A DNA stretch of 64,000 bases from Rhodococcus phenolicus (GTDB lineage Bacteria; Actinomycetota; Actinomycetes; Mycobacteriales; Mycobacteriaceae): positions 1 through 64,000 of the forward strand of contig NZ_LRRH01000008.1 in assembly GCF_001646785.1 (NCBI RefSeq). The letters are read 5' to 3'. How positions within the stretch are numbered: the first letter of the stretch is position 1; each line of letters starts with the position of its first letter. This document shows positions 37,907 to 61,837 of the stretch, in pieces. Below the pieces are notes generated by a model. That model made no database searches. It had not been told where the DNA came from and saw nothing but the letters and a program-made list of their open reading frames with translations. The position numbers were made by a program, and so were the translations under genes.

Positions 37907-38427
37907 GGTACGAACTCCACCTTCGATGCCAGCAGGCGACCGTTCTCGTCGCAGATCGTCACCCGCAGCCGGAAATCGCGCGGCGCGGCGTCGGACTGGC
38001 CGGCGTTGGACACCATCGCGCGCGAGGCCACCAGCGACGACACGCACGGGCCGTCTTCGGTCTGGATACCTGCCTCGACCACCTCCCCGGTGGTGTCGAC
38101 CCCGGCCTTCTGCACCACTTCCACAAAGGGGCCCTCGCGACCTTCGAACTCGGCCTTGAAGTCCCCGGTGGCACCGTCGAGCAGTCGCTGGACGTCGGCG
38201 TCGGCGGTGGCGCTGTGGATCGTGGTCAGGTTCAGCACCGTCTGCCGCGCCGCCTGCAGATAGGCCTCACGTCGCTCGTCGCGGTCGTTGATCGACTGCC
38301 GGTCGATCAGCAACCACACCCCGGACGCGATGAGGGCGACGATGAGAACCGCCGCGCCGATCGTGACGGGCCGCGTCCAGGACGGACGCGCCGAAGTGCC
38401 CTCCGATGTCTGGTTCTCGTCCGCCAT
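37903..38427 (-). CDS. Mce-associated membrane protein
   Basis: The 174-residue Mas protein has a short basic cytoplasmic tail, one TM helix (about 22-42) and an extracytoplasmic domain with TGDFKAEFEGREGPFVE, the same fold type as the following gene. It corresponds by position to Rv3493c. The ATG shares one base with the mce4F stop (TGATG). It is probably an accessory of the Mce4 steroid importer. Confidence 0.88.
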   Translation of the reverse strand: MADENQTSEGTSARPSWTRPVTIGAAVLIVALIASGVWLLIDRQSINDRDERREAYLQAARQTVLNLTTIHSATADADVQRLLDGATGDFKAEFEGREGPFVEVVQKAGVDTTGEVVEAGIQTEDGPCVSSLVASRAMVSNAGQSDAAPRDFRLRVTICDENGRLLASKVEFVP

Positions 38428-39842: not shown

Positions 39843-41050
39843 GGCGCGGGCACCCCCAGCGGCAGTTCGGGAATGGTGAACTCACCGAGTCCCGGAACGG
39901 TCACGGTCGCCGGTCCGGGCGCGGTCCGCGGAGCCGGCGGCTGCAGCGGGGCCTGGAACGGATCGACGGCCTGTCCGGCGAGTCCCGCGTCCTGCCCGAG
40001 GATGCCTTCGGGCCCGGCGAGCCGGCCCGCGAGCGGAGTTCCGGTCAGGAAGTTGAGGTCGAGTCGCTCGTTGGTCAGGTCGATGGTCATGGCGAGGTTC
40101 GCATAGTCGCCTCGGATGATGTTGTTGATACCGGCCTGCGGGAACGGATACGTGAGCAGCACCCCCAGTACCTGGGTGAGCGAGCTTCCCGAATCGGCGA
40201 GTGCTCGCAGCGTCGGGGCGAGCGCCTGCAGGTTCGTGTCGAGATCGGCACCGGCGTTCTCGACGAGCCGGCTTGCGACGGAGCTCATCTCACCGAGCGA
40301 CGTCAGCGCGGCGGTCAGATTCGTGCGCTGATCCCCGAGCACGCCGAGGGCCTCCGGCAGTTCGTCGAGGGCACGTTCGAGTGTGTCGGTCTGGTCGTTG
40401 ACGGTCGACGCCAGCCGGTCCATGCCTTCCATCGCCGAGATGATGTCGGTCCGCTGCTGGTCGAGAGTACCGACGAGTTCGTCGAGCCGCGGCATCAGGT
40501 CGCGCAGCGAATCCTCGCGTCCGACCAGGGCCGCGTTCAGTTCGGTGGTGATGTCGTTGATCTGAGCGAGTCCGCCGCCGTTGAGCACCACCGACAGTGA
40601 CGACAGCGTCTGCTCGGTCGTGGGGTAGGCACCGGCTCGTTCGAGCGGGATGACGTCCCCGTCCTCGAGCCGGCCCTGCGGCGGTTCGTCGGTCGGGGCG
40701 GCCAGTTCCAGGTGCTGCGATCCGAGCAGGCTGGTCTGCCCGATGCGGGCGGTGGCGTTCGCGGGAAGTTCGACACCGCCGTCGAGCGCCACGGTCACCA
40801 GCGCGTGCCAGTCCACGACCTCGATGTTCGCGATGCTCCCGACGGTGACGTCGTCGACACGCACCGGCGAGTTCTGGGAGAGCGTGGTGACATTCGGCAT
40901 CTCGATCTGGACCCGGTAGGCGCCGTCGCCGCGCCCGGCGGTGCCGGGCATCGGGACCGAGTTCAGTCCGTTCCACTCGCAACCGGACAGTGTCACGGCG
41001 AACACCGCCAGGGCCGCGACGGCGGTGAGCCGCCTTGCGCGCGTGGTCAT
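39839..41050 (-). CDS. mce4E: Mce family lipoprotein Mce4E
   Basis: The 403-residue Mce protein is a lipoprotein: the signal peptide ends in the lipobox LSGC (Cys near residue 24), as for the fifth gene of each mce operon (LprK type). The Mce domain follows (YRVQIEMPNVTTLSQ, RVDDVTVGSI), then a helical region with repeated Asp/Leu-rich heptads and a Pro-rich tail. It overlaps both neighbours by four bases. Confidence 0.93.
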   Translation of the reverse strand: MTTRARRLTAVAALAVFAVTLSGCEWNGLNSVPMPGTAGRGDGAYRVQIEMPNVTTLSQNSPVRVDDVTVGSIANIEVVDWHALVTVALDGGVELPANATARIGQTSLLGSQHLELAAPTDEPPQGRLEDGDVIPLERAGAYPTTEQTLSSLSVVLNGGGLAQINDITTELNAALVGREDSLRDLMPRLDELVGTLDQQRTDIISAMEGMDRLASTVNDQTDTLERALDELPEALGVLGDQRTNLTAALTSLGEMSSVASRLVENAGADLDTNLQALAPTLRALADSGSSLTQVLGVLLTYPFPQAGINNIIRGDYANLAMTIDLTNERLDLNFLTGTPLAGRLAGPEGILGQDAGLAGQAVDPFQAPLQPPAPRTAPGPATVTVPGLGEFTIPELPLGVPAP

Positions 41051-42372
41051 CGTCCTCCTCCCGGCTGCAGCAACGATCCCAGGTCGCCGGGCACGTCGAC
41101 GCTCGGCAGGCCGGACAGCAGTCCGTCGACCGGGCTCGGTGCGGGCGGCTCCTCCGGGGCGAGTCCGCGTCCGGCCGAGGCCTCTTCGAGCCACGGTTCG
41201 GTGTAGTGGATCTGATCCGGGAACGCCTGTACCCCGGCGATCGGGTTGATCAGGTACGGCAGGTAGTTGCTCGACAGTGATGCCAGTACGGGCCCGAGTT
41301 GCTGGCGGCACAGCTCCTCGCTTCGAGCGGAGGTGGCGTTTGCGGCGGCGCCGACCGACCCGCACATCCATTCGATCGGGTTGCGGCCGTTGCTGATCGA
41401 GAGGGCACCGGTCAGCGAGCCCTGCGCCGGCTTGTAGATGTTGTAGAAGTTCGACAGCGCCGTCGGCCCCGAGTGCAGGACCCGTTCGATCTCGGGTCGT
41501 TTGCGGGCGAGGACCTCGGTGGCGTCGGCGAGTCGCTCGACGGATTCGGTGAGGCCGTCGCGGTTGTCCTGGACGAAGCGCTGCACGTCGCCGACCGCGA
41601 TGTTCAGGTCGGTGAGCGAGGTCCCAAGTTGGTCCGAGCTCGAGGCGAGCACGTCGGACACGGATGCGAGACGGCCACCGAACTGCACGATCTGCTCGTT
41701 GCTCTTCGACAGGACGGAGACGAACGCCTGCAGGTTGCGGACGGTGGAGAACAGGTCGGTGCGTCCGTCGGAGAGGGTCCGCATCGTTTCGGACAGCTCC
41801 CGCAGCGCCTCGCGCACCGCGGTGCCGTTGCCCTCGAGGTTCTCGGCGGCGGTGTCGATGAACCGGCCGAGCGATCCCTGTGGGTCGAGATCCTCCGGCC
41901 CGAGCGCTTCGGTCAAACGCATCAGTTCCGTCTTGATCTCGTCCCATTCGACGGGAGAGGCGGTGCGCGACACAGGGATCGTCGCCTCGTCGGCGATCGC
42001 CTCGCCGCCGGCGTACACCGGGGTGAGCTGGATGAACCGTGCCGAGACCAGGCTCTGGGCGATGATCACGGCCTGGGCGTCGGCCGGCACGTCGACCGAG
42101 TCGTCGACGACCATGGTGACCCGGGACATGTCGTTGCCCGGTTCGATGGCGGTGATCCGCCCGACCGGAACGCCGAGGACCCGGACGTCGTCACCTTCGT
42201 ACAGTCCTGTGGTGGAGACGAATTCGGCGTGGATCGTGCGCTTGCCCCAGCCCGGCAGGACCAGCGCGACGACACCGGCAGCGAGCACCGTGACGATCGC
42301 AGCGGCGATCGCGGGCACCAGCCATTTCGGGCGTCCCGCCTTCTTCCCGTTCTCCATGGTCGTGTCGCTCAT
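41047..42372 (-). CDS. mce4D: Mce family protein Mce4D
   Basis: The 441-residue protein has a cytoplasmic Lys-rich start, TM helix at about 17-41, an MlaD/Mce domain (AEFVSTTGLYEGDDVRVLGV, PVGRI) and a long helical region. The C-terminal extension has WMCGSVGAAANATS and a Pro-rich end. The ATG overlaps the mce4C stop. The longer open frame upstream is a shadow of mce4C. Confidence 0.93.
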   Translation of the reverse strand: MSDTTMENGKKAGRPKWLVPAIAAAIVTVLAAGVVALVLPGWGKRTIHAEFVSTTGLYEGDDVRVLGVPVGRITAIEPGNDMSRVTMVVDDSVDVPADAQAVIIAQSLVSARFIQLTPVYAGGEAIADEATIPVSRTASPVEWDEIKTELMRLTEALGPEDLDPQGSLGRFIDTAAENLEGNGTAVREALRELSETMRTLSDGRTDLFSTVRNLQAFVSVLSKSNEQIVQFGGRLASVSDVLASSSDQLGTSLTDLNIAVGDVQRFVQDNRDGLTESVERLADATEVLARKRPEIERVLHSGPTALSNFYNIYKPAQGSLTGALSISNGRNPIEWMCGSVGAAANATSARSEELCRQQLGPVLASLSSNYLPYLINPIAGVQAFPDQIHYTEPWLEEASAGRGLAPEEPPAPSPVDGLLSGLPSVDVPGDLGSLLQPGGGR

Positions 42373-43427
42373 TCGCCATCCTTCTTGATCGACGGCGGGT
42401 TGTCCGGAATCACGTCCTCCAGGTCCTGGGGCAGAAGCTCGGGCGCGACGAACCCGTCGACGACCGCCTTCCACCACGGGGCGGGCAGGATGTTCGAGAC
42501 GTACGCGTTGAAGAACGGTCCGCTCGCGACGGATTCGCCGAGGGAACTGATGTAGGGGCCGAGACCGTCGAGGGCTTCGGCGATGTTCTCCTTGTTCGCC
42601 TGCAGGTTCGCGGTGACCCGGTTGAGTACCTCGAGCGTCGGTGCCATCTGGGCCTGGTTGTCCTGCACGAGACCGGTCAGTTGCCGCGACACCGACGAGA
42701 CGTTGGTGATGAGTGCGGTGATGGCGTCGCGGCGCAGGCTCAGTTCGCCGAACAGGTCGTTCGCGTCGACGATCAGCTCGTTGATGCGGTCGCTGCGTTC
42801 GGCGAGGATGCCGGTGACGTTCTCGGCGCGACCGAGCAGTTCCTGCAGCGATTCGTCGCGCGCGTTGATCGACTCCGAAAGCCGCCGCATGCCTTCGAGG
42901 GCACCGCTGATCTCGGGAGGGGTGTCCTGCAATGCACCCGACAGCGCATCGAGCGAGTCGTTGATGCCGTCGGTGTCGAGTTCCGACACGGTCGTAGTGA
43001 GGTCTCCGAGGGCGTCGGGCAGCGAGTACGGCGCGTTGGTGCGCTCGACCGGGATCGTCGTGCCGGGCCGCAGCACGCCGTCGCCGGACGGCCGCACAGC
43101 GAGTGACTTGCGGCCGAGGACGGTGTTGGTCTTGATGTCGGCGCCGGTGGCGTCGCCGAGGGCGATGCCGTCGCGCACGGTGAAGGTCACCAGGACTTGT
43201 TGTCCGTCGAGTTCCACGCCGGTGACGGTGCCGACACCGACGCCCGCGAGGCTGACGTCGTCGCCGGCCACCAGACCGCCGGCGTCGGTGAAGTGCGCCG
43301 AGTAGTTCAGTCCACCGGAGATGAACGGGAGCTGGTCGTACTGCAGGCCCGCGAGCACGATCGCGGTGCACACACCGAGGCCGATGACACCGACCTGGAC
43401 TGGGTTGCGTTCACGTGTGGGGCTCAT
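42369..43427 (-). CDS. mce4C: Mce family protein Mce4C
   Basis: The 352-residue subunit has a TM anchor (VGVIGLGVCTAIVLAGL) and Mce domain (YSAHFTDAGGLVAGDDVSLAGV). The following coiled-coil-rich region resembles other Mce proteins (heptad Leu/Ile with Asp/Asn), and the tail is acidic with no Pro-rich extension. The stop overlaps the mce4D start and its own start overlaps the mce4B stop. Confidence 0.93.
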   Translation of the reverse strand: MSPTRERNPVQVGVIGLGVCTAIVLAGLQYDQLPFISGGLNYSAHFTDAGGLVAGDDVSLAGVGVGTVTGVELDGQQVLVTFTVRDGIALGDATGADIKTNTVLGRKSLAVRPSGDGVLRPGTTIPVERTNAPYSLPDALGDLTTTVSELDTDGINDSLDALSGALQDTPPEISGALEGMRRLSESINARDESLQELLGRAENVTGILAERSDRINELIVDANDLFGELSLRRDAITALITNVSSVSRQLTGLVQDNQAQMAPTLEVLNRVTANLQANKENIAEALDGLGPYISSLGESVASGPFFNAYVSNILPAPWWKAVVDGFVAPELLPQDLEDVIPDNPPSIKKDGE

Positions 43428-44452
43428 TCGACCTTTGCACACCTTCCGGTCATCTGCTCCGCCGACGTGAAACGGATCGTCGTCCCGTCCGGTCCGGAGA
43501 ACTTGAACGTGTTGGCGCACAGGAAGAACTGGAAGAAGTTTCCGTACACACCGACACGGATGAGCTTCTTGTAGTCCGACGGCAACCGTTCGAGGGTGCG
43601 ATTGATGTCGTCCTCACCGAGATCGAGCTGCGTCATGGTGCGGTTGGTCTCGGCGATCACCGACTGCAGGTCCGGCCGGGTGTTCTGCAGCAGCGACGCG
43701 AGATCCGCTGTGCCCGCCGCGATCTGCGGGATCGCCGCCCCGATGGGGTCGCGGTCCTCGGCGAGGCCGCCCACGAGCGTGTGCAACCGGTCGATGGTGT
43801 CGGTGAACTGCTGGTCGCGCTCGTCGATCGTGCCCAGCACTGTGTTGAGGTTGTCGATGACCTCCCCGATGAGCTGGTCCCGGTCGGCGAGGGAGTTGGT
43901 GAACGAGTTGGTGTTTCCGAGCAGCGACACCAGCGTGCCCCCCTGCCCCTGGAAGATCTGCAGCAGCGCCCCCGACAGGTCGTTGACCTGCTGCGAATCG
44001 AGTCCCTTGAGCAGCGGCTTGAATCCGCCGAGCAGCAGGTCCAGATCTAGAGCCGGAGCGGTCCGGTCGAGCGGGATGGTCTCCCCGGGCCGCAGCTTCT
44101 CGCCGGTGCTGCCGGGACCTTCGAGCAGTTCCAGGTAGCGGTCGCCGACGAGGTTCTCGTAGCGGACGGTCGCGCGGGTGCTCTGGAGCAGCGTGTACTT
44201 CGAATCGACGTCGAAATCGACCTCGGCGACGTTGCCGTCACCGATGTCGACACTGCCGACCGATCCCACCGGGACACCGGCGATGCGCACCTTGTCTCCG
44301 GACTTCAGGCCGGACACGTCGGTGAACGTCGCGCGGTAACCCTCGCTGCCGGAGAACCGGGCCTGGCTGAACACCACTGCCAGGCCGGCGAAGATCAGAA
44401 CCATCGCGACGGCGAAGGCCGTGAATTTGATCGTGGTTGGTCTCATGGTCAC
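43424..44452 (-). CDS. mce4B: Mce family protein Mce4B
   Basis: The 342-residue subunit has an N-terminal TM segment (FAVAMVLIFAGLAVVF), Mce domain (YRATFTDVSGLKSGDKVRIAGVPVG), long helical region and a short C-terminus ending GRCAKVE. GTG 44452 is chosen because it overlaps the mce4A stop (GTGA) like the other junctions; an ATG two codons later is possible. Confidence 0.93.
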   Translation of the reverse strand: MTMRPTTIKFTAFAVAMVLIFAGLAVVFSQARFSGSEGYRATFTDVSGLKSGDKVRIAGVPVGSVGSVDIGDGNVAEVDFDVDSKYTLLQSTRATVRYENLVGDRYLELLEGPGSTGEKLRPGETIPLDRTAPALDLDLLLGGFKPLLKGLDSQQVNDLSGALLQIFQGQGGTLVSLLGNTNSFTNSLADRDQLIGEVIDNLNTVLGTIDERDQQFTDTIDRLHTLVGGLAEDRDPIGAAIPQIAAGTADLASLLQNTRPDLQSVIAETNRTMTQLDLGEDDINRTLERLPSDYKKLIRVGVYGNFFQFFLCANTFKFSGPDGTTIRFTSAEQMTGRCAKVE

Positions 44453-45627
44453 TGCCCTGCCGCAAGTTCGTCGCCGTACAGGTACTGGAAGATCGTCGGG
44501 TACCGGATCCACGCCTCGGTGGACGGCTTGTAGGGCACCTCACCGGTGTTCGCGACCGCGAACTGGGCGTGTCCGTCCCGCTTCGGGTCGAAGTCCGGCA
44601 GGCCGTAGCAGTTGGGTCCGCCGCTGGCCCCGACGACGGGGAGGTCCTGTTCCTGGTTGTAGATGGTGGCGCCGCCCATGAAGCTGGTGCTGAGCATCAG
44701 CGACGCGTACTTGCCGGTGCCGGCCATCGGCTCGAACGCGATACGCGCGTCGTTGAGTCCGACGATGAAGCACGTCAATTCGGGCGAGTACTCGCCGAGG
44801 AGGGTGGTCGTGTCGGTCAGCAGATCCAGTGAGGTCGTCAGCTGGGCCTCGTTCTCGCCGAGGACGTCGCGGCCGGTGGTCGCCAGACCGGTGACGTTCA
44901 TCAGGAGCAGATCGAGGTTGGCCTGTTCGTCGACGACGGTGTTGCCCACGTCGGTGGCGTTCCCGATGGTGGTCATCAGGTCGGGGGCGGTGTCGGCGTA
45001 GACCCCGGTCACGTCCGCTGCGGTCTCGAGGTCGTATTCCAGCTGCGGCAGAGACGGATTCATCGTCACCAGGTAGTCGTCGACCTCCACCAGCGCGGCA
45101 CCGAGATCGTCACCGCGACCGCGCAGGCCTTCCGAGATCGCACCGAGGGTGGCGTTGAGCTTCTCCGGCTGCACCTGCGCGAGCACGTCGTTCAGGTGCT
45201 CGAAAACGGTGTTGAATTCGACGGTGACGTTCTCGGCAGCGATGACCGCGCCTTCCTGCAGCGGAACCGGCGACGGATCCGCCGGGACGATCAGGTTGAC
45301 GAACTTCGCCCCGAACACGGTGGTCGATTCGATCGTCACCTGCGCGTTCGACGGAATCAGGTGCAGTTGGCCGGGATCCATCGCCAGATCCAGCACCGCA
45401 CCGTCGGGAGTGTGCTCGATGGACGAGACCCGGCCGACCTCGACGCCACGGAGCTTGACCTTGGCGTCGGGTTCCATCACCAGGCCGGAGCGCGCGGCGG
45501 TCACGGTCACCGGGACCGTGTCGGTGAAACCTCCGACGAACTGGGTCAACGCCGCGACGACGAGCACGACGAGACCACCGACCATCCCGAAGGCGGCGAG
45601 CTTCTTCTTCCACGAAGGGGTGTCCAT
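44449..45627 (-). CDS. mce4A: Mce family protein Mce4A
   Basis: First Mce subunit, 392 residues. The TM helix is at about 12-34, the Mce domain is VTVTAARSGLVMEPDAKVKLRGVEVGRV, and the conserved TTVFGAKFVNLIVP segment marks the A subunit. A C-terminal globular part follows (YSPELTCFIVGL, GGPNCYGLPDFDP). It lies nine bases after yrbE4B. Mce4A of Rhodococcus and mycobacteria is part of the sterol importer. Confidence 0.94.
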   Translation of the reverse strand: MDTPSWKKKLAAFGMVGGLVVLVVAALTQFVGGFTDTVPVTVTAARSGLVMEPDAKVKLRGVEVGRVSSIEHTPDGAVLDLAMDPGQLHLIPSNAQVTIESTTVFGAKFVNLIVPADPSPVPLQEGAVIAAENVTVEFNTVFEHLNDVLAQVQPEKLNATLGAISEGLRGRGDDLGAALVEVDDYLVTMNPSLPQLEYDLETAADVTGVYADTAPDLMTTIGNATDVGNTVVDEQANLDLLLMNVTGLATTGRDVLGENEAQLTTSLDLLTDTTTLLGEYSPELTCFIVGLNDARIAFEPMAGTGKYASLMLSTSFMGGATIYNQEQDLPVVGASGGPNCYGLPDFDPKRDGHAQFAVANTGEVPYKPSTEAWIRYPTIFQYLYGDELAAGQ

Positions 45628-45636
45628 GAATGCCGC

Positions 45637-46485
45637 CTATCCCGACAGGTTGAAGTTGCCGGACATCCCGTATACCGCGAGCGAGATGAGGAGCGTGACG
45701 GTGACGACGGCGATCAGGGACGCGCGCACCGCGTTGCCGACGGCGACACCGACACCGACCGGACCGCCGCTCGCGTTGAAGCCGTAGTAGGTGTGGATGA
45801 GCATCACCGCGATGGCCATGACGATGGCCTGCACGAACGACCACAGGATATCGGTGGGGATCAGGAAGGTCTGGAAGTAGTGGTCGTACACACCGGCGGA
45901 CTGACCGTAGAGCACGACCGTCGCGAAACGGCTGGCGATGAACGACGCGATCACCGCGAGCGAGTACAGCGGCACGATCGCGATCATGCCGGCCATCACC
46001 CGGGTGCTCACCAGGTACGGGACGGACGGGATCGCCATCACCTCGAGCGCGTCGATCTCCTCGGAGACCCGCATTGCACCGAGCTGGGCGGTGGAACCGG
46101 CGCCGATGGTCGCCGCGAGCCCGATACCCGCGATGGTAGGAGCGGCGATACGCACGTTGATGAACGCCGCGAAGAAGCCGGTGAGCGCCTCGACGCCGAT
46201 GTTGCCCAGGGAACTGAAGCCCTGCACGGCGATGATGCCACCGGTGAACAGGGTCAGGAAGCCGACGATCACGACGGTGCCGCCGATGACGGCGAGCGCG
46301 CCGGTGCCCATGCTGATCTCGGCGACGAGCCGGACCGTCTCCTTCGGGTAGTGCATCAGCGCGCGCGGTGCGGAGCCGAGTGCACGACCGAAGAACAGGG
46401 CCTGTTCGCCGACGCCGTCGATCGAGTTCGACGCGGCCCGGAAACGTCGGCGCACGCGGGGGAAGCGCCCGGTAATCACTGCCAT
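45637..46485 (-). CDS. yrbE4B: MlaE-family ABC permease YrbE4B
   Basis: The 282-residue permease of the MlaE/YrbE family has about five TM helices and the EQAL-like loop around MRVSEEIDALEVMAIPSVPYLV, which contacts the ATPase (Mkl, encoded elsewhere). Second permease of the Mce4 importer (SupB in R. jostii). It lies 20 bp after yrbE4A. Confidence 0.94.
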   Translation of the reverse strand: MAVITGRFPRVRRRFRAASNSIDGVGEQALFFGRALGSAPRALMHYPKETVRLVAEISMGTGALAVIGGTVVIVGFLTLFTGGIIAVQGFSSLGNIGVEALTGFFAAFINVRIAAPTIAGIGLAATIGAGSTAQLGAMRVSEEIDALEVMAIPSVPYLVSTRVMAGMIAIVPLYSLAVIASFIASRFATVVLYGQSAGVYDHYFQTFLIPTDILWSFVQAIVMAIAVMLIHTYYGFNASGGPVGVGVAVGNAVRASLIAVVTVTLLISLAVYGMSGNFNLSG

Positions 46486-46505
46486 CTACACCACCACCGA
46501 GCAGC

Positions 46506-47270
46506 TCACCCGGCCGTCAGCTTGATGCCGACGGCCGTGACGAGGAGGTTGACCACGAACAGTGCCATGAACGCGAACACGACCGTCTGATTGACGGCGT
46601 CGCCGACGCTCTTGGCACCGCCCTTGACGTTGAGTCCGAGATAGGAGGCGACGAGTCCGGCGATCATGCCGAACAGGCCCGCCTTGACCTGGGAGATCAT
46701 CAGTTCTCCGAAACCGGTGAGCAGCGTGATCCCGTTGACGAAGGCACCCGGGTTCACGTCCTGCAGGAATACCGAGAACGCGAAACCGCCGAGGATGCCG
46801 ATCGAGCACACGAGACCGTTGAGGAGCAGCGCGACGACCGTGGAGGCGAGCACTCGGGGCACGACGAGGCGATGGATCGGGTTGATGCCGAGCACCCGCA
46901 TCGCGTCGATCTCCTCGCGGATGGTCCGGGCCGCGAGGTCCGCGCAGATGGCGGTGGCGCCGGCGCCGGCCACGATGAGGACGGTGACCATCGGCCCGAC
47001 CTGGGTGACCGCGCCGAGTGCCGCGCCCGCGCCGCTGAGGTCGGCGGCGCCGATCTCGCGCAGCAGGATGTTGAGGGTGAAGCTGACCAGAACCGTGAAC
47101 GGCACTGCCACAAGGACCGTCGGAAGGAGTGACACCCGTGCGACGAACCAGGCCTGGTCGATGAATTCGCGCCGTTGGAACGGCCGGGAGAATGCGGCGC
47201 GGGCGGTTTCCCCGGTCATGGCGAAGAGACCGCCGACGGCGCGCAACGGGACCTCGAGGAGGTCTACCAA
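46506..47270 (-). CDS. yrbE4A: MlaE-family ABC permease YrbE4A
   Basis: The 254-residue first permease of the Mce4 complex (SupA in R. jostii) has the loop REEIDAMRVLGINPIHRLVVPR and several long hydrophobic helices. A TTG start is chosen because GGAGGGGAG lies just upstream and no ATG fits. It is the first gene of a ten-gene operon running to 37160. KstR boxes lie 75 and 277 bp upstream. Confidence 0.93.
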   Translation of the reverse strand: MVDLLEVPLRAVGGLFAMTGETARAAFSRPFQRREFIDQAWFVARVSLLPTVLVAVPFTVLVSFTLNILLREIGAADLSGAGAALGAVTQVGPMVTVLIVAGAGATAICADLAARTIREEIDAMRVLGINPIHRLVVPRVLASTVVALLLNGLVCSIGILGGFAFSVFLQDVNPGAFVNGITLLTGFGELMISQVKAGLFGMIAGLVASYLGLNVKGGAKSVGDAVNQTVVFAFMALFVVNLLVTAVGIKLTAG

Positions 47271-53207: not shown

Positions 53208-53333
53208 GCAGCCGACTTCTGCAATCCCCTGCCGCTCCACATACCCTGGAAATGTTCGGGTGACGTGCACGCCGGCGGCGTACACGGACCGTCCTCGCGT
53301 CCCGGCGATGGGCGGCATCGGTCGATCAACGCC

Positions 53334-53375
53334 CTGGGCGTCGGACAGGTACTCGGTACCTGACCCGACGCCCAG
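53334..53375. terminator. Long two-part hairpin after fadD17
   Basis: Outer arms CTGGGCGTCGG/CCGACGCCCAG (11 bp) enclose inner arms CAGGTAC/GTACCTG (7 bp) with a TCG loop and 1-2-base bulges. It is a strong 18-bp structure between the convergent fadD17 and nitronate monooxygenase-like genes. Confidence 0.75.
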
Positions 53376-53443
53376 TCGCCGCCGATGCAGCCGTCGCTGT
53401 TCGGGATACGGAACGGGTGCTTCCCCGCGCCGCACCGGCAGGA

Positions 53444-54574
53444 TCAGGCGTTCGCAGCCTCGTTGAACTCTTCGAGGGTGCCCGTCGCGTCGAGGTACTC
53501 CTGCACCCACCGCTCGATGACCGCGGCGGACTTCTCGACCTTGGTGAGCTGACCCACGACCTGGCCGACAGGGTTGAACGCAACGTCGACGGTCTCGTCC
53601 GGGTACTTGTGGGTCGCGGCGACCGCCATACCGGACACCATGTACTGCAACGGCATTCCCAGCGGCTCGGGATTTCCTTCCTTCTCCCACGCCTCGGTCC
53701 AGTCGTTGCGCAGCATGCGGCACGGCTTGCCGGTGAACGAACGGCTGCGGACGGTGTCGCGACTGGTGGCCTTCGCGTAGGCCGCCTGCTGGACGGCGGT
53801 GTTCTCCGCCTCCTCGACCATCAGCCACTGCGAGCCGGACCACGCGCCCTGAGCGCCCAGCGCGAGTGCGGCGGCGATCTGCTGGCCGCTGCCGATACCA
53901 CCCGCGGCGAGGACCGGGATCGGCGCGACCTCCTTGACGACCTGCGGCCACAGAACGATCGAACCCACCTCACCGCAGTGGCCGCCGCCCTCGCCGCCCT
54001 GCGCGATGATGATGTCGACGCCGGCGTCGGCGTGCTTACGGGCCTGCGCGGGCGAACCGCACAGCGCGGCGACCTTGCGGCCCGCATCGTGGATGTGGGC
54101 GATCATGTCCGCCGGCGGAGTGCCCAGCGCGTTGGCGATGAGTGTGACCTTCGGATGCTGCAACGCGATCTCGACCTGAGGGGTCGCGGTCGCCTCGGTC
54201 CATCCCAGAAGCTGCAACGCGTTATCGTCGCCCTCGGGCAGTGGCACGCCGTGGTCGGTGAGGATCTTGCGCCCGAAATCGAGGGTTTCCTGCGGCACCA
54301 TCGACTGCAGCATCTTCGTGAGCTCTTCGGCGGACAGGTTGGAGTCCATGCCCTCGTACTTGTTCGGGATCACGATGTCGACACCGTACGGATGGTCGCC
54401 GATGTGCTCGTCGATCCAGTTCAGCTCCACTTCGAGCTGTTCGGGCGTGAACCCGACGGCGCCGAGGACGCCGAAACCACCGGCCTTGGAGACGGCCACG
54501 ACGACATCGCGGCAGTGGGTGAACGCGAAGATGGGGAACTCGATTCCGAGTTCGTCGCAGAGCGGGGTGTGCAT
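53444..54574 (-). CDS. Nitronate monooxygenase-like FMN oxidoreductase, paralog 1
   Basis: The 376-residue TIM-barrel flavoprotein of the 2-nitropropane dioxygenase/NMO family has FMN-binding segments ANALGTPPADM, IIAQGGEGGGH and PVLAAGGIGSGQQI. Related enzymes in steroid catabolism include IpdC, acting on late ring C/D intermediates. Its upstream KstR box ties it to cholesterol breakdown. CGAAGGAG precedes the ATG. A second paralog lies at 61948. The true substrate is uncertain. Confidence 0.85.
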   Translation of the reverse strand: MHTPLCDELGIEFPIFAFTHCRDVVVAVSKAGGFGVLGAVGFTPEQLEVELNWIDEHIGDHPYGVDIVIPNKYEGMDSNLSAEELTKMLQSMVPQETLDFGRKILTDHGVPLPEGDDNALQLLGWTEATATPQVEIALQHPKVTLIANALGTPPADMIAHIHDAGRKVAALCGSPAQARKHADAGVDIIIAQGGEGGGHCGEVGSIVLWPQVVKEVAPIPVLAAGGIGSGQQIAAALALGAQGAWSGSQWLMVEEAENTAVQQAAYAKATSRDTVRSRSFTGKPCRMLRNDWTEAWEKEGNPEPLGMPLQYMVSGMAVAATHKYPDETVDVAFNPVGQVVGQLTKVEKSAAVIERWVQEYLDATGTLEEFNEAANA

Positions 54575-54606
54575 TCGGCACTCCTTCGAGGACGCGAGTC
54601 GCATAC

Positions 54607-54742: not shown

Positions 54743-55984
54743 TCAGATCGTGCCGGCGTCCCTCAGGGCCGCCCGCTGCTGCTCCGTGAGGCCGAGCAGG
54801 TCACCCCACACCGCCGCGTTGTCGTAACCGGCGACCGGCGCACCGGCACGACGCACGGCGCCGGGGGTTCCGGCGAGCACCGGGACGACGCCGGGCCCGA
54901 GAATCTCCGCTCCCGTTCGCTCGTCGTGATGCTCGACGAGCATGCCGCGCGCACGGAACTGTTCGTCCGCGGCGACCTCCGCGACGGTGTTGACCGGTCC
55001 GGCAACCACACCGGCGGCGGCGAGATGTTCGAGCAGATCGGCGAGCTTCCACCGGGCCGCCCACGCACCGATGAGATCGTCCAGCTCGTCCTGGTGGACG
55101 CCACGCGCCAGGTGATCGGCGAAGCGCACGTCGTCGGCCAGTTCGGGCCGGTCCATCGCGACGCACAGCCGGCGGAACACGGTGTCCTGGTTGGCGGCGA
55201 TGACGATCCACATGTCGTCGCCGGTCCGGTACAGGTTCGACGGGGCGATACCCTCGAGCCGGGTCCCCGACGGTCCGCGCACCACCCCGGCGGCGTCGTA
55301 GTCGGGGATCACCGATTCCTGGATGGCCAGGCAGGACTCGGTGAGCGCCACGTCGACGACCTGCCCCCGTCCGGTGCGTTCGCGGGAGACGAGCGCCGCG
55401 AGGATGCCCTGGACCGCAAACATCCCGGCGAGGGAATCCCCGAGGGACAGCGCCAGCCGCGGCGGGGCCTGCCCCGGATAGCCGTTGAGGTGCCGCAAGC
55501 CGGATTCCGCCTCGGCCACCGAGGCGTAGCCGGCCTGCCCCGCCTTGGGACCGGTCTGCCCGTAACCGGACACACGGGCCAGCACGAGCCCCGGGTTGAT
55601 CTCGGACAGCACGTCGTATCCGAGACCCCATTTCTCGAGGGTGCCGGGACGGAAGTTCTCTACGATGACGTCCGATTCGGCGACCAGCCGCCGGAACAGG
55701 TCCTGCCCGGCGGGCGACCGCAGGTCCAGAGTCACACAGCGCTTGTTCCGGGCGTGGACGGTCCAGAAGAACCGGTGACCGTCCCGCTCGCCCTGCCCCC
55801 ACGTGCGCAGGGGGTCGGGGCGGGCGGGATCCTCGATCTTGATGACATCGGCTCCCATGTCGCCGAGCAGCCGCCCGGCGAACGGGCCGGCGATCAGAGT
55901 GCCCAGTTCGAGTACCCTGATGCCGTCGAGCGCGCCCGTCGTCTGCGGCGCCGATTCGCTGTTTGCCGAGTCAAGCTGTGTCAC
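54743..55984 (-). CDS. CaiB/BaiF family CoA-transferase (class III)
   Basis: The 413-residue class III CoA-transferase has ALDGIRVLELGTLIAGPFAGRLLGDMGADVIKIE at the N-terminus and the catalytic Asp region SLGDSLAGMF. The partner motif WIVIAANQDTVFRRL follows. It moves CoA between acids or acts as an alpha-methylacyl-CoA racemase-like enzyme. The GTG start lies inside the tail of the ALDH remnant. It closes the minus-strand operon that begins with the multicopper oxidase. A racemase role would fit branched isoprenoid acyl chains, but that is not shown. Confidence 0.88.
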   Translation of the reverse strand: MTQLDSANSESAPQTTGALDGIRVLELGTLIAGPFAGRLLGDMGADVIKIEDPARPDPLRTWGQGERDGHRFFWTVHARNKRCVTLDLRSPAGQDLFRRLVAESDVIVENFRPGTLEKWGLGYDVLSEINPGLVLARVSGYGQTGPKAGQAGYASVAEAESGLRHLNGYPGQAPPRLALSLGDSLAGMFAVQGILAALVSRERTGRGQVVDVALTESCLAIQESVIPDYDAAGVVRGPSGTRLEGIAPSNLYRTGDDMWIVIAANQDTVFRRLCVAMDRPELADDVRFADHLARGVHQDELDDLIGAWAARWKLADLLEHLAAAGVVAGPVNTVAEVAADEQFRARGMLVEHHDERTGAEILGPGVVPVLAGTPGAVRRAGAPVAGYDNAAVWGDLLGLTEQQRAALRDAGTI

Positions 55985-56400
55985 TGCCGTTTTCCGTTCG
56001 TCTCGCGGGTCGATACCCCAGGTGGACCGTCTTCACCTCGACAAACGCCTCGAGACCGCTGCGGCCGATACCGCTGACCTCACGTCCGCCCCAGGGCAGG
56101 CTCGGGTCGGGGACGCCCCAGCCGTTGACCCACACGGTACCGACCCGCAGTTGCGGGATCACGCTGTGCACGCCCAGTTGCCGGCGTCGATGCGCCGGAA
56201 CGCGGGGTGTGCGGCGGACCGCATGATCCGGTACGTCCACGTGTGCCGGTTGATTCCACGCGGTCGGTGAGCGCCGTCGCGGAATGCTGCTCGGCGTACA
56301 GACCGTAGGGGGCGCGCTGCGGCGAATTCTGCCCCCCACGGCAACGTCCCCTCGATCGCCTCGGTGCGGTGTTCGTTGCCGAACACGAGGTCCGACGAAC
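55971..56400 (-). pseudogene. Aldehyde dehydrogenase C-terminal remnant
   Basis: About the last 65 residues in one frame match the ALDH C-terminus: LRVGTVWVNGWG, LPWGGREVSGIGR and VEVKTVHLGY. Upstream the similarity continues only in pieces in other frames (YGLYAEQHS, for example), so at least one frameshift and loss of most of the gene have occurred. The catalytic Cys and NAD domain are absent. It fills the gap between the CrtC-like gene and the CoA-transferase, overlapping the latter's start. Confidence 0.75.
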
Positions 56401-56406
56401 CGGCCG

Positions 56407-57462
56407 TCACGTGAGGGCAACCATCTCGTGCAGCGTCGCGCCGTGCCGCTCGTGGGTCAGACCGTCGACGGTCACCGCCAGGTCGAAGTCGGAACGGAAC
56501 CGGAAATATCCGGGCCGGCCGACGAACCGGTTGACGATCGGCTTGAGCAACGGACTCGCCGCCAGCGGGATGTCCTCGAGCAGGTTGTGTGCGTGCACGA
56601 TCTCCCGCACGTTCAGTCTGACGTCGAGGACATCCGGAACACGGATGCGCAGCCACGTCGGATAGGTGCGGTCGGCGACCGAGTCGAACACGGTGGGCCC
56701 CTCGGTCATCTCGACCTCACCGTTGCTGACCACCACATTCCCGTTGTGTGCGATCATCACCGGCTGCGACCAGTGGTGCCCGTACTTCTTCTGGGTGTGG
56801 ACCATCGCGTAGACCAGGGTGAAATCATCGGTGTACAACCGACCCCAGTACCACTTGTCGATGATCCGTTTCATGTCACCCACACCCCAGTTGTGGTCGT
56901 GATAGCCACGGCCCGCAACAGTGGTGGTCTCGCCGTCGATGGTCACGGTTCCCGCGACCTTCGCGCGCGGTGCGCCGACGACCCAGGCGAAGAACTCGCG
57001 ATCGTTGTAGCTCGTCTGCCCGCGGCCCGGCATCCACGGCGGAACTTCGGCAGCGAACGTGAGGTCGAATCCGAGGTCGCCCTCGGCGACTTTCACCCGG
57101 TACACGGGCAGCCCGTCCTCTTCCCCGGTCAGCCGCGCGAAGTTCGTGCCCACCCGGACATCGCACCTGTCGGTGGCGACCGCGAGATCCGCATCGGTGA
57201 ACTGTCGCACCACCTCCCGGCGCTTGCCGTCGGGGCTGTAGACGTGGATCTCCACGCCCGGCTTGCGGTGCACCAGTTCCCGGGTTTGGAGCATCGCCAC
57301 GACGATGCGGCCGTCGTCGAGATGCGCGTCGAAGTACCAGTGTTCGAATGCGTGCTTGTCGGTCGACGGGTGCGCCCCGTTGTCACTCGGCGCGACGGTG
57401 GTGATCTCACCGTCGCGTCGACCCGGTCCGTTCCATGCCTCGACGATCTGCAGTGCGGCCAC
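56407..57462 (-). CDS. CrtC/AttH lipocalin-like protein (carotenoid hydratase family)
   Basis: The 351-residue protein has the layout of the hydroxyneurosporene synthase (CrtC)/AttH family, a double beta-barrel of lipocalin type. Visible are HAFEHWYFDAHLDDGRIVV near residue 37, the GRGYHDHNWGVG motif in the middle, and WYWGRLYTDDFTLVYAMV. CrtC proteins add water to isoprenoid double bonds; other members have unknown roles. The GTG start follows AAGGGGG. It is third of the functional genes in the accessory operon. Confidence 0.8.
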   Translation of the reverse strand: MAALQIVEAWNGPGRRDGEITTVAPSDNGAHPSTDKHAFEHWYFDAHLDDGRIVVAMLQTRELVHRKPGVEIHVYSPDGKRREVVRQFTDADLAVATDRCDVRVGTNFARLTGEEDGLPVYRVKVAEGDLGFDLTFAAEVPPWMPGRGQTSYNDREFFAWVVGAPRAKVAGTVTIDGETTTVAGRGYHDHNWGVGDMKRIIDKWYWGRLYTDDFTLVYAMVHTQKKYGHHWSQPVMIAHNGNVVVSNGEVEMTEGPTVFDSVADRTYPTWLRIRVPDVLDVRLNVREIVHAHNLLEDIPLAASPLLKPIVNRFVGRPGYFRFRSDFDLAVTVDGLTHERHGATLHEMVALT

Positions 57463-57508
57463 AGTGCCCCCTTCTCGATGATGATGTCCGCGACGCGATG
57501 TACTCGTA

Positions 57509-57549
57509 CGTCAACGACGCAGTGCCCACGTGCGTCAACGACGCAGTGC
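57509..57549 (-). repeat. Short tandem duplication at the oxygenase stop codon
   Basis: The 17-base segment CGTCAACGACGCAGTGC occurs twice at 24-base spacing. The second copy (57533-57549) holds the end and stop of the MpaB-type gene; the first is just downstream. Confidence 0.8.
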
Positions 57550-58812
57550 GCTGCTGGCGTCGAATTGCGCTTCCCGCCCCTGCATCTGGGCGCGATACCA
57601 GTTCTCGCGATGGGTAATCATGACCTTCTCCTGTATCCGGGCGACGCCGGGCACGAAGCGGCGGGCGAGTTCCATCGCGGTGATGAGCGGGAACCGGGCG
57701 ATCGGGATGATCATCCACGGCAGCACCTTCGGCATCGAGTACTTGCGCCGGGTGCCGGGTGCCATGTAGATCGCCGAGTACACCGAATTGATGCGGAAGT
57801 TGTAGGCCTCCCGCAGCCGGGTGAGACCACGGTGGCCGTCGCGGGGCGCGAACGCCTGCGGGTACGACTCGATGAGTTCCTTGCCGTGCCGGCCGGAATC
57901 GTGCGAGCGCGACACCACCGTCGTAGCCAGCGCCCGCAGACTGTCGCCGATCGTCTCCGGGTACCAGCGCAGCCGCACCCCGAGCAGGTAGCCCATGTAC
58001 TTCTGGAAGTGGATGAGCGCCCGGATCTCCCGCGGGGTGGTCTGGTAGCCGAGCACCCACAGCGCCAGCCCGGGGGTGACGCTGCCCGCGATGAGCGTGA
58101 GCATCATGTAGGTCTGGCTGATCGGCAAACCCCACTTGGACCGGTCCCATTCGGGATGGCTCGCCACCCGCGACCGGACGGACACGTGCATCACACGTAC
58201 CTTCAGCGCCGTGGCCCGGCCCTTCGATCCGGGAGTGAGCAGCGCACCGGGTTCGGAAACGTCCATCCAGAACCGGCAGGTCTCGAGAAAGCGGCGCAGC
58301 GCGTTGTCCCCGGCGTAGCCACCGGCGAGCGACAGCGGTGTCGCGACCGCCGCCTCGGTGTAGATCTCGAGCGTCTCGGCTCCGGCGAAGCTGAACAGCA
58401 TCGTGCCCCAGCGTCGCCAGATCGCCGCTCCCTGCTCGACAAGTTCCGGCCGCACCCAATCGGGTACGGATTCGAATTCCTCGAACAGCGCGCGCATCGA
58501 TGCGGGAGCGTCCGGCACCGCGTCGATACCGTCGGCGAGCGCGACGTCGAGCATCTCGCGAGCCCGTGTCGGTCCGGTCTCGCCGTGGTAGACGTCCTCG
58601 ACGAATCGCTCGGCGATGGGGTCGCCGCTGTAGAGGTCGTTGCACAGGGCGCGGGCCTGCTCGTCGGTCGGCAGAATATCGAACCCGGTGAGCCTCAGAA
58701 CGAGTCGGCGCACCCGCTGGACACGCTCGGTCGCAACGGAATCCCAGTAGGGGAACGCGGACGGGCAACGGTCCGTCCCATCGGGTGTCTCACGAGCGAG
58801 CGTGCCGGTCAT
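57535..58812 (-). CDS. MpaB/latex-clearing-protein family oxygenase (DUF2236)
   Basis: The 425-residue protein belongs to the DUF2236 family, which includes the rubber oxygenase Lcp (cleaves polyisoprene) and fungal MpaB (cleaves a farnesyl side chain). Family landmarks are GGYAGDNALRRFLETCRFW, KVRVMHVSVRS with a probable heme-region His, PEWDRSKWGLPISQTYMMLT and GYQTTPREIRALIHFQKYMGYLLG. There is no signal peptide, unlike secreted Lcp, so it should act in the cytoplasm. The ATG overlaps the stop of the 65-aa gene (ATGA). The substrate is unknown. Confidence 0.83.
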   Translation of the reverse strand: MTGTLARETPDGTDRCPSAFPYWDSVATERVQRVRRLVLRLTGFDILPTDEQARALCNDLYSGDPIAERFVEDVYHGETGPTRAREMLDVALADGIDAVPDAPASMRALFEEFESVPDWVRPELVEQGAAIWRRWGTMLFSFAGAETLEIYTEAAVATPLSLAGGYAGDNALRRFLETCRFWMDVSEPGALLTPGSKGRATALKVRVMHVSVRSRVASHPEWDRSKWGLPISQTYMMLTLIAGSVTPGLALWVLGYQTTPREIRALIHFQKYMGYLLGVRLRWYPETIGDSLRALATTVVSRSHDSGRHGKELIESYPQAFAPRDGHRGLTRLREAYNFRINSVYSAIYMAPGTRRKYSMPKVLPWMIIPIARFPLITAMELARRFVPGVARIQEKVMITHRENWYRAQMQGREAQFDASSALRR

Positions 58813-59006
58813 GCCGGGGCCTCCTGGCTGCGATCGTCGAGAACGGTACGGCCGATCCAGCCGGCGAGGCGGGAGACGACATCGTCCAGCCCACCGGGCT
58901 GATCCACCGGAAGGTGGTCGAGGTCGCGCATCTCGATCAGTTCGGCGTCGTCCGGCAGCGCAGCGCGCATGAGTCGCGAGTCGCGGATCTGTGTCGTGGA
59001 AGTCAT
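58809..59006 (-). CDS. 65-residue protein resembling an alpha/beta-hydrolase tail
   Basis: The small protein overlaps both neighbours by four bases (ATGA at each end), which strongly supports translation. Its sequence ELIEMRDLDHLPVDQPGGL followed by VVSRLAGWIG resembles the C-terminal end of alpha/beta hydrolases, including the catalytic-His segment (here DHLP), but no hydrolase core is encoded. It may be the stable remnant of a hydrolase or a small partner of the oxygenase or multicopper oxidase. Confidence 0.6.
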   Translation of the reverse strand: MTSTTQIRDSRLMRAALPDDAELIEMRDLDHLPVDQPGGLDDVVSRLAGWIGRTVLDDRSQEAPA

Positions 59007-60805
59007 GTCACCGTCCGATATTTCAGCATCATGTCGTGGTCTTCGTGATCGAGGATGTGGCAGTGCCACACGTACCCCTGCAGCGTGCGCGTCCCCGGGT
59101 GATCGTGGTGAGTCGCCGTCCCGTGGCCGTCGATGCCCTGGATCAGGTCGGTGGTGAAGGTGGCATCGGGGTCGAAGCCGAGTTCTTCCGCCGTCGGAAA
59201 TCGAATCACGATGCGGGTGACGGAGTTCGGATCACACACGACGGTGTCCTTGAAGCCGGTCTCCCACGGCTCGGGCCCTCGGAGCGGTTCGACGACGAAC
59301 GGGTCCGGGTCCGGTGTCCATTTGATGCCGAGGGGCGGTTGCGGCTCACGTGCACACATCGCGAGGGTGTTGATCGCCTGCCGTCCGAGAATCCGGAACG
59401 TCACCAGGTGCAGGTGCACCGGATGCGGGTCCGCGGTCGCATTGACGATGTTCCACTGCTCGACGGTGCCCTGCCGCGGCATCTCGATGTCGTCGCTGTG
59501 GAATCGAAGGTTGTTGAGCGACATGATGGACGGCGGCAGGCGCAGATCCGAGGGCTGACTGAGCGACACGTTCCGGACGACCTGCGGCGCCGGGACCGGT
59601 CCCATGGCGTGGGGTTGCCCCGTTCCACCGCGAAGGGTCGCGGGAACCGGGCCGGGGAACCCGCGCACCGCGCCGGCCCGGAAACGCAGGAACACTGGCA
59701 TGCGCACGGCGCCGATCTGCGCGGCCTGGGGCGCGGCGTCCTCGGTGTTGCGGAGTTCGACGGTGGCGCCGGGATCGAGCAACGCGAAATCGACCAGCAG
59801 ATCGGCACGTTCGCCGGGCGCGAGCCGGACCCGTGTGGTCGTGGCCGGCGCGTCGAGCAGTCCGCCTTCCATACCGACGACCCAGAACACCATGCCGTTG
59901 GAGAAGCTCAGGTCCCACACGCTGAACGAGGCGGCGTTGAGCAGCCGCAGCCGATAGAGCCCACGCGCAACGCGGGTCTCGGGCCAGATCTTGCCGTTGA
60001 CGACACCGACGTCGCCGACCGCCCCACCTTCCCAGCGGCCCTGTGGCACGGCCGGTGTGGAGCGGATCGATTGCGAGCCGTCACTGTTCACGATCTTCTC
60101 CTGCAGCACCAGCGGCAGGTCGAACTCACCGGAGGGCAAGCCGAGGGGGTTGCCTGCCTCGCCGGTATCGAACTCGTCGCGCAACTCGTAGATCCCGGCG
60201 AGTCCGGCGTAGACGTTGAGGCGGGTGATCGCCATCGCGTGGTCGTGGTACCACAGCATCCCGGCTTCCTGACGGTTCGGGAAGCGGTAGGTCATTCCCT
60301 GACCGGGCCGGGAGATCAGCTCCGGATGGCCGTCGGAGGCGGGTGGGGTCACTCCGCCGTGCAGGTGCAGCGACATCGGGATCTCGACACGGTCGCGTTC
60401 GCTGAGACCGTGCAGCGAGGTGTCGATGTCCGGCGCGAAAGGATGGGCACCCGAGCGGTTTCGGAAGCGGATCTCGGTCGGCTGACCGCGGTGCGCGGTG
60501 ATGACGGGGTCCAGGTAGCCGTCACCGTAGGCGAGAGTCGCGCCGGGCGGAAGGTCGCGGTGGAAGCTGTGGGAGGAACTGACGGCGTCGATCGCGATGC
60601 GCGAACCGGAAACCCGATCGAGCATCGGCAGTTCGTCGACGAAGGGTGCGAGTGTCGGCGAGCGGAACAGGAGCGGCCGGCCGATGTCGGGGCCGTCGGC
60701 CAGGGCACGACCGGCGAGGAGCCCGGTCGCACCGGCCCCTGCCCCCACGGCGATTCCCGTGAGAAGTGTTCTACGACTGATGTTTCGCATCGAGAAAGCT
60801 TCCAT
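59003..60805 (-). CDS. Tat-exported multicopper oxidase
   Basis: The 600-residue multicopper oxidase has an N-terminal twin-arginine signal (SRRTLLTG) ending near residue 40. Copper ligands occur in order: HLHGG, WYHDHAM, HPVHLHL near 520, and the T1/T3 motif WHCHILDHEDHDMM at the C-terminus. Such enzymes oxidise phenols, metals or polymers with oxygen outside the membrane. ATG 60805 or the ATG five codons on may start it. A promoter with an internal palindrome lies 54-81 bp upstream. It is the first gene of the accessory operon. Confidence 0.9.
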   Translation of the reverse strand: MEAFSMRNISRRTLLTGIAVGAGAGATGLLAGRALADGPDIGRPLLFRSPTLAPFVDELPMLDRVSGSRIAIDAVSSSHSFHRDLPPGATLAYGDGYLDPVITAHRGQPTEIRFRNRSGAHPFAPDIDTSLHGLSERDRVEIPMSLHLHGGVTPPASDGHPELISRPGQGMTYRFPNRQEAGMLWYHDHAMAITRLNVYAGLAGIYELRDEFDTGEAGNPLGLPSGEFDLPLVLQEKIVNSDGSQSIRSTPAVPQGRWEGGAVGDVGVVNGKIWPETRVARGLYRLRLLNAASFSVWDLSFSNGMVFWVVGMEGGLLDAPATTTRVRLAPGERADLLVDFALLDPGATVELRNTEDAAPQAAQIGAVRMPVFLRFRAGAVRGFPGPVPATLRGGTGQPHAMGPVPAPQVVRNVSLSQPSDLRLPPSIMSLNNLRFHSDDIEMPRQGTVEQWNIVNATADPHPVHLHLVTFRILGRQAINTLAMCAREPQPPLGIKWTPDPDPFVVEPLRGPEPWETGFKDTVVCDPNSVTRIVIRFPTAEELGFDPDATFTTDLIQGIDGHGTATHHDHPGTRTLQGYVWHCHILDHEDHDMMLKYRTVT

Positions 60806-60858
60806 GATGAGCCCTGCGCGGACGAGGAGGAAGAACAGCCGATCGTGATCCGAGCCAC

Positions 60859-60886
60859 ACAGTACCATAGGGTATGGTTCAGTCAA
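60859..60886 (-). promoter_or_regulatory. Promoter with embedded palindromic operator
   Basis: On the minus strand TTGACT (-35, 60881-60886) and TACTGT (-10, 60859-60864) are 16 bp apart. The spacer holds the perfect palindrome ACCATA-GGG-TATGGT (60864-60878). A bound dimer, possibly the divergent TetR, would block the multicopper oxidase operon. Confidence 0.6.
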
Positions 60887-61255: not shown

Positions 61256-61837
61256 GTGGCGCGCCAACCGTCGGAGACCGAGCGTTCGGCCGAACGACGC
61301 CGGCGGCTCTCGCTCGAGGACTGGACCGAGGCCGGTCTGCACGTGCTTGTCACCGAAGGCCTTGCCGCCGTGAAGATCTCCCGCCTCTGCAAAGATCTCG
61401 GTGTCACCAAGGGCAGTTTCTACTGGCATTTCGACGACATCGACCAGCTGATGAAGGGCATCGCGACGCGCTACGCGTCCCAGGACAACGACGCCGCCCG
61501 CGGCCTGACCAGCCTCGAGGAGCTGCCGGTCCGCGAACGGCTGGCACGGATGGGCACCATGCTCGTCGACGACCGTGCGTGGGCCGCGGAAGCAGCGGTC
61601 CGCGAATGGGCCCGCAGCGATCCGAAGATCGCCGAATCCGTGCGCGCCCTCGATCAGCGGATCATGACCGTGGTGCAGAACGCGTTCCGCGAACTGGGTT
61701 TCGACGAACGCGGCGCCCGTGTCCGCGCCGGAACCCTCGTCTACGCGGGCATCGGATTCGTCTACGGCCGGGACAGCCTCCCCACGCCCACCGTCGACGA
61801 GATCCAGGAACTCCTCGCCGTCCTCACCGCCCGCTGA
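61256..61837 (+). CDS. TetR family regulator
   Basis: The 193-residue repressor has the HTH KISRLCKDLGVTKGSFYWHF and a C-terminal domain of all-helical type with REWARSDPKIAESV, as in the KstR-like/AcrR subgroup. GTG 61256 is chosen because AAGGAG lies eight bases before it. It is divergent from the multicopper oxidase operon and is the natural candidate to bind the ACCATAGGGTATGGT palindrome. A strong terminator follows. Confidence 0.88.
   Translation: MARQPSETERSAERRRRLSLEDWTEAGLHVLVTEGLAAVKISRLCKDLGVTKGSFYWHFDDIDQLMKGIATRYASQDNDAARGLTSLEELPVRERLARMGTMLVDDRAWAAEAAVREWARSDPKIAESVRALDQRIMTVVQNAFRELGFDERGARVRAGTLVYAGIGFVYGRDSLPTPTVDEIQELLAVLTAR

Follow-up and report, generated by a model that had tools for sequence, protein, structure and literature searches.

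What does a compact run of oxidative genes on the minus strand between fadD17 and fadD19 do in Rhodococcus phenolicus, and is it still whole? We address both questions for positions 54743-60886 of a 64,000-nucleotide stretch (the window; assembly GCF_001646785.1, contig NZ_LRRH01000008.1, positions 1 to 64,000). The locus is partly pseudogenised: we regard its decay and gene content, as laid out below, as practically certain. The gene set from which it derives is widespread and apparently undescribed, and its intact form favours import and breakdown, by soil actinobacteria, of a lipophilic prenyl- or alkenyl-substituted hydroquinone or phenol rather than of an isoprenoid polymer or a sterol. 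The features of the locus are as follows.

61256-61837, plus strand: TetR-family regulator (PF00440, 1.5e-8; alternative GTG codons at 61247 and 61250 leave the start uncertain)
60864-60878, no strand: operator palindrome ACCATA-CCC-TATGGT, one copy in the genome
59003-60805, minus strand: multicopper oxidase (MCO), twin-arginine (SRRTLL motif), CotA/phenoxazinone-synthase-like, with copper-ligand motifs; intact
58809-59006, minus strand: alpha/beta-hydrolase (ABH) remnant of 65 aa, by alignment to L003 8832-9989
57535-58812, minus strand: MpaB/Lcp-family oxygenase, predicted b-haem (PF09995, 4.5e-14); intact
56407-57462, minus strand: CrtC/kievitone-hydratase-like lipocalin-fold protein (PF07143); intact
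56166-56410, minus strand: homogentisate-dioxygenase homologue (HGD), pseudogene remnant, N-terminal ~80 codons with indels
56010-56172, minus strand: aldehyde dehydrogenase (ALDH), pseudogene remnant, C-terminal end, stop codon lost
54743-55984, minus strand: family III CoA-transferase (PF02515, 4.4e-125), intact; linkage to the cluster frequent, not constant

A preliminary description of this DNA read the locus as a six-gene minus-strand operon with a divergent TetR gene and 4-bp overlaps joining its first three genes. The TetR gene lies as claimed, and its orthologues are likewise divergent in most relatives; the overlaps are present (ATGA at 59003-59006 and 58809-58812); and the MCO, oxygenase, CrtC-type and CoA-transferase genes are intact. 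The other two members, the 65-aa protein and the ALDH remnant, are scars. Rhodococcus sp. HM1 (L003), whose MpaB is 94% identical to that of the window, carries, like other relatives, a 385-aa ABH in place of the 65-aa open reading frame. That frame joins the first 8 ABH codons (MTSTTQIR) to the last ~57 across an internal deletion of ~0.97 kb that removed the catalytic serine, and we rejected it both as a genuine protein and as an accessory subunit; a search of the window's genome found no other ABH, leaving this remnant as the sole trace. The supposed ALDH remnant is composite. Its HGD part, ~80 N-terminal codons, has lost 12 bp and carries 1-bp indels; a ~2.4-kb deletion joins it to the final ~55 codons of ALDH, whose stop codon is also lost. 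No cluster HGD was found elsewhere in the genome.

The assembly is a draft of 232 contigs, and the deletions might in principle be assembly errors concealing a complete operon. We consider this very improbable: the remnants carry several independent small indels and a lost stop codon rather than merely clean joins, which argues against an artefact; the missing genes occur nowhere else in the assembly; and in sister genomes the locus is found in different states of decay. Relative to HM1, the ratio of nonsynonymous to synonymous substitution rates is 0.08-0.14 for the retained cluster genes (0.14 for MCO) and 0.52 for the ABH remnant. By this measure the retained TetR, MCO, MpaB and CrtC-like genes are still under purifying selection in the window strain; the upper module may still have a role there, for example in detoxification; alternatively, the loss could be recent.

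The losses extend beyond the ring-side genes, to an importer operon that belongs at the CoA-transferase end of the locus, where two further features bear on the argument.

53444-54604, minus strand: NMO1, nitronate-monooxygenase-family flavoprotein (PF03060), flanking gene
53208-53443, no strand: position of the yrbE/mceA-F operon in relatives; operon absent in the window

Intact relatives (G005, G013) carry a second yrbE-mceA-F operon, separate from Mce4, between fadD17 and NMO1, and HM1 has the cluster mce operon in the same place within the stretch examined. Nothing of it lies between the end of fadD17 (53207) and the start of NMO1 (53444) in the window, and a search of the window's genome with the HM1 MceF returned Mce4F as best match, at 43% identity. 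The window's Mce4-type operon, with two MlaE permeases and MceA-F, occupies 38427-47270 (minus strand) on the other side of fadD17. At the very start of the window, 123-278 (plus strand) is a fragment with an FAA_hydrolase match.

Sister genomes have eroded differently. In one (G017), TetR and the mce operon remain, along with most of HGD and part of ALDH, and MCO, ABH, MpaB and CrtC are gone; three others (G003, G004, G016) retain only a scrap of ALDH beside an intact CoA-transferase. Because these decay states vary, we read the locus within the genus as an ancestral block with several episodes of erosion behind it rather than as something inserted recently into this strain. The accessory operon "inserted" between fadD17 and fadD19 of the preliminary description is thus wrong for the genus, where the block survives as scars and a further mce operon has gone with it. 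A recent mobile insertion was rejected on the same ALDH scars in sister genomes (L197-L200) and on a search for MpaB on plasmids, which gave no matches. The CoA-transferase and one NMO persist where the remainder of the cluster is deleted and therefore need not be pathway members.

Several side observations concern the same process. In the G017 locus (L197 9101-14893), NMO1 is 99% identical; this genome has no exact copy of the operator, so its TetR looks orphaned. ABH, HGD and ALDH are truncated in Nocardia vaccinii and N. gamkensis (L013 12326-13478, L026 9388-14712), which marks repeated loss of the lower module. In Nocardia caishijiensis (L074 9234-9850) the MCO matches are short pieces in different frames, with MpaB and CrtC intact.

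Conservation across genera defines what has been lost. We gathered MpaB orthologues from Rhodococcus, Nocardia, Dietzia, Gordonia, Skermania, Antrihabitans, Amycolatopsis and Aeromicrobium. In close relatives the intact order is TetR, divergent from MCO, ABH, MpaB/Lcp, CrtC-like, HGD, ALDH, CoA-transferase and NMO, together with a dedicated mce operon; Rhodococcus coprophilus (L006) is a cultivable example of an intact locus. Reduced sets comprise TetR-MpaB (19 loci), TetR-MpaB-CrtC (17) and TetR-MCO-MpaB-CrtC (16); the full set adds ABH, HGD and ALDH, and it is the last of the reduced states that the window now resembles. Linkage within the full set is tight. In a 151-genome sample of the family, all 20 full-length HGD hits are single-copy and adjoin both ABH and MpaB; across 80 MpaB loci, ABH occurs in 18, HGD in 17 and both in 15 (Fisher P = 1.5e-11, uncorrected for relatedness). 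An mce operon lies in the flank taken at 27 of 34 full loci and 6 of 64 reduced loci, counts that include some species twice and some truncated contigs and are uncorrected for relatedness; at L139 and L069, MCO directly precedes yrbE. The co-occurrence in relatives that had been proposed as a check is thereby borne out in other genera. In other genera neither the fadD17 and fadD19 flanks nor the placement in the cholesterol region recurs.

The set also shares a regulatory signature. The palindrome reported within the divergent promoter is real and perfect (0 in 100 shuffles), with a TTGACT-like -35 on one side and a weak -10 on the other, although a sigma-70 promoter scan of the window locus found nothing. 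Each of the cluster-bearing genomes of the genus (11 of 11) has a single exact copy of the 15-bp operator, ACCATA-N3-TATGGT, against none in the 6 genomes without the cluster, and a reversed control pattern gave zero; common regulation, previously only suggested, thus gains visible signs. Where the locus is split in other genera (L013, L017, L139, L142), exact or near-copies precede the separate units, and at L144 an exact copy lies upstream of the mce operon, before yrbE. No further exact targets that would extend the regulon were found in the genus genomes. The operator is very likely cluster-specific, and the locus is probably TetR-repressed through it.

What, then, does the intact locus act on? 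The preliminary description proposed degradation of an isoprenoid or a sterol-like polymer. Its chemical core survives, since isoprenoid double bonds are targets of the MpaB/Lcp and CrtC families; its substrate class fares less well, since an HGD-type ring dioxygenase and an ABH in the intact operon point to an aromatic head bearing an isoprenoid tail, and not to squalene, polyisoprene, a carotenoid or a sterol. A pure isoprenoid or a sterol side chain would fit the Mce4_CUP1 domains of the cluster Mce proteins (Mce4-type transporters import sterols), the position of the locus in the cholesterol region of this genus, and the presence of 25-phosphosteroid lyase among CrtC-fold relatives. We nevertheless judge it unlikely: the ring dioxygenase stands beside MpaB in every HGD-bearing genome of the family sample, the oxygenase differs from a secreted rubber oxygenase in lacking both a visible twin-arginine motif and the Lcp lysine ligand, and the cholesterol-region flanks are confined to this genus.

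The retained enzymes are compatible with a prenylated aromatic. The MCO, whose copper ligands are intact, best matches CotA in PDB and PhsA in NCBIfam, and falls below the equivalog cut-offs tried (O-aminophenol oxidase PhsA, 198 vs 950 bits; CueO, 148 vs 525). The oxygenase model (predicted local distance difference test, pLDDT, 88) has Lcp as its only PDB match (template-modelling scores 0.63/0.70). Its R174, T178 and H209 are conserved and align with R164, T168 and H198 of Lcp, and the distal haem ligand K167 is replaced by Glu177, invariant in 54 sequences; inspection of the N-terminus by eye revealed no twin-arginine motif. With these equivalents kept and the lysine exchanged, the enzyme may work like Lcp without being one. 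Fungal MpaB, from mycophenolic acid metabolism, cuts a farnesyl C=C bond of a phenolic compound, and C=C cleavage is described for other MpaB/Lcp relatives too (PMC12724181). The CrtC-like model (pLDDT 93) matches the folds of AttH, kievitone hydratase, Diels-Alderases and 25-phosphosteroid lyase. Against the carotenoid 1,2-hydratase CrtC equivalog (NF045922) it scores 26 vs 400 bits, only the PF07143 domain passing, and its sole PDB sequence match is kievitone hydratase (7a0q/7a0t), which hydrates the prenyl group on a phenol and detoxifies a phytoalexin (PMC5805349).

The lost enzymes, as seen in intact relatives, supply the ring side. Cluster HGDs form one clade (support 100/100) that retains the iron ligands H331/E337/H367 and replaces Tyr346 by histidine in 55 of 55 sequences (some species counted twice). 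Tyr346, which we take to be functionally needed in canonical homogentisate dioxygenase, is present in the human and Pseudomonas enzymes, in 27 of 27 Streptomyces-type proteins and in L156. The cluster enzyme thus appears to keep fold and metal site while its pocket is altered. ALDH finds its best NCBIfam model in phenylacetaldehyde dehydrogenase (StyD), at 615 bits and under the 800-bit cut-off. Intact ABH copies share an invariant S123/D327/H356, and a profile search assigned them to no named subfamily.

Gene content, decay, linkage, operator specificity at the sequence level and the distinct HGD clade are observed; from protein families, gene order and regulation we infer the substrate and every reaction of a pathway that would link each conserved gene of the set. 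The exported MCO would oxidise the phenol, for example by opening a chromanol to the quinone, and the dedicated Mce transporter would import the lipophilic substrate. The CrtC/kievitone-hydratase-like enzyme would add or remove water at a side-chain double bond, after which the MpaB/Lcp-type haem oxygenase would cut the C=C nearest the ring (Ar-CH2-CH=C), yielding an arylacetaldehyde and an isoprenoid ketone. ALDH would convert the aldehyde to an arylacetic acid, a homogentisate analogue; the variant HGD would open its ring; and ABH, replacing fumarylacetoacetase, would cleave the product. Ligand binding would free TetR from ACCATA-N3-TATGGT and induce the units. In the window strain, with mce, ABH, HGD and ALDH deleted or dead, at most partial oxidation or detoxification by MCO, the CrtC-like protein and the oxygenase would be left. 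That the substrate is a lipophilic prenyl or alkenyl aromatic, whether hydroquinone or phenol, we regard as an even call; within that class a prenyl-hydroquinone or chromanol of the tocopherol or plastoquinone type is the leading candidate, though as a specific assignment it is a more tentative suggestion. Equally tentative is the whole scheme in its strongest form—a complete, undescribed actinobacterial route for Mce import and mineralisation of tocopherol- and plastoquinone-type prenylquinones, in which vitamin E biosynthesis would be reversed to a homogentisate analogue opened by a Tyr346His dioxygenase.

Four points weigh against this proposal. The bond cut by fungal MpaB (PMC12724181) is far from the ring rather than ring-proximal. 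The literature on prenylquinone or tocopherol catabolism in actinobacteria, or on a related gene cluster, offered nothing direct and no precedent either way. Cluster HGD exceeds the TIGR01015 equivalog cut-off (608 vs 511 bits), so homogentisate itself may be the substrate. Finally, the locus of many Nocardia is reduced to TetR-MpaB or to TetR-MCO-MpaB-CrtC, so the upper part is useful without ring cleavage.

The third point would make HGD-ALDH-ABH an ordinary homogentisate pathway, for tyrosine or phenylacetate, that had drifted beside MpaB. This is quite improbable, and we rejected it as a candidate: the Tyr346 exchange is universal among cluster HGDs; the cluster lacks fumarylacetoacetase (FahA); and among the 20 carriers of full-length cluster HGD, 8 lack 4-hydroxyphenylpyruvate dioxygenase (HPD) and 7 lack FahA over cut-off, some carriers lacking both and the others having them elsewhere in the genome. 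The window's genome, moreover, has a separate, distant MarR/HGD'/FahA locus (HGD' 24% identical); such a locus, with the gaps among carriers, makes tyrosine breakdown unlikely for the cluster. This locus (L203 6545-10680, contig C157) encodes in a row MarR, a 402-aa HGD homologue scoring 65 bits against the TIGR01015 cut-off of 511, and fumarylacetoacetase; it is probably the real homogentisate operon of the strain, missed by the standard hmgA model.

The Nocardia sets lead elsewhere: TetR-MCO-MpaB-CrtC might detoxify a prenylated antimicrobial (a phytoalexin or meroterpenoid), with ring cleavage an optional catabolic addition, gained or lost. TetR control, the phytoalexin-detoxifying role of kievitone hydratase (PMC5805349), and the constraint on the window's retained genes despite dead lower genes all suit this account, which we hold possible, if doubtful, because linkage of the full set to a dedicated Mce importer suggests feeding, not defence.

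Should catabolism of a prenyl or alkenyl aromatic be correct, one branch of MpaB/DUF2236, a large family whose members are mostly uncharacterised, would gain a function. Plant litter is rich in prenylquinones and tocopherols, and the literature searched yielded no bacterial pathway for either. The locus offers substrates that can be tested jointly through its enzyme set, one-site regulator, variant ring dioxygenase and orphan Mce importer. The window itself adds a caution: a compact operon in a single genome can be partly dead.

Several components have known counterparts from which they depart. CotA- and phenoxazinone-synthase-type multicopper oxidases are the best matches of the MCO, yet it lies far under their equivalog cut-offs and its operon context differs. 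With kievitone hydratase and CrtC, the CrtC-like protein shares a lipocalin-type fold at ~15% identity over the fold. The latex clearing protein Lcp K30 (PDB 5o1l/5o1m) and the window oxygenase have in common an all-helical fold, PF09995 and the R164/T168/H198 equivalents; the latter differs in its invariant glutamate at the K167 position, its lack of a visible twin-arginine motif, its 19-20% identity and its operon with aromatic-ring catabolism genes. Fungal MpaB, Gordonia Nro1 and bacterial C=C-cleaving MpaB-family oxygenases belong to the same family and perform oxidative C=C cleavage, but the text of PMC12724181 consulted, from which they were compared by description rather than by sequence, describes no operon with HGD, ABH or Mce for them. 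The cluster Mce shares the yrbE-mce gene set and Mce4_CUP1 domains with the Mce4 sterol importer but is a separate operon, absent in the window; its MceF and MceD share 40-50% identity with those of the genome's own Mce4. Relative to homogentisate 1,2-dioxygenase HmgA (PDB 3zds, 1ey2), cluster HGD passes the TIGR01015 cut-off and keeps the iron ligands and His288, whereas its separate clade, the Tyr346-to-His and M364-to-W/F exchanges and the lack of linkage to FahA or HPD set it apart.

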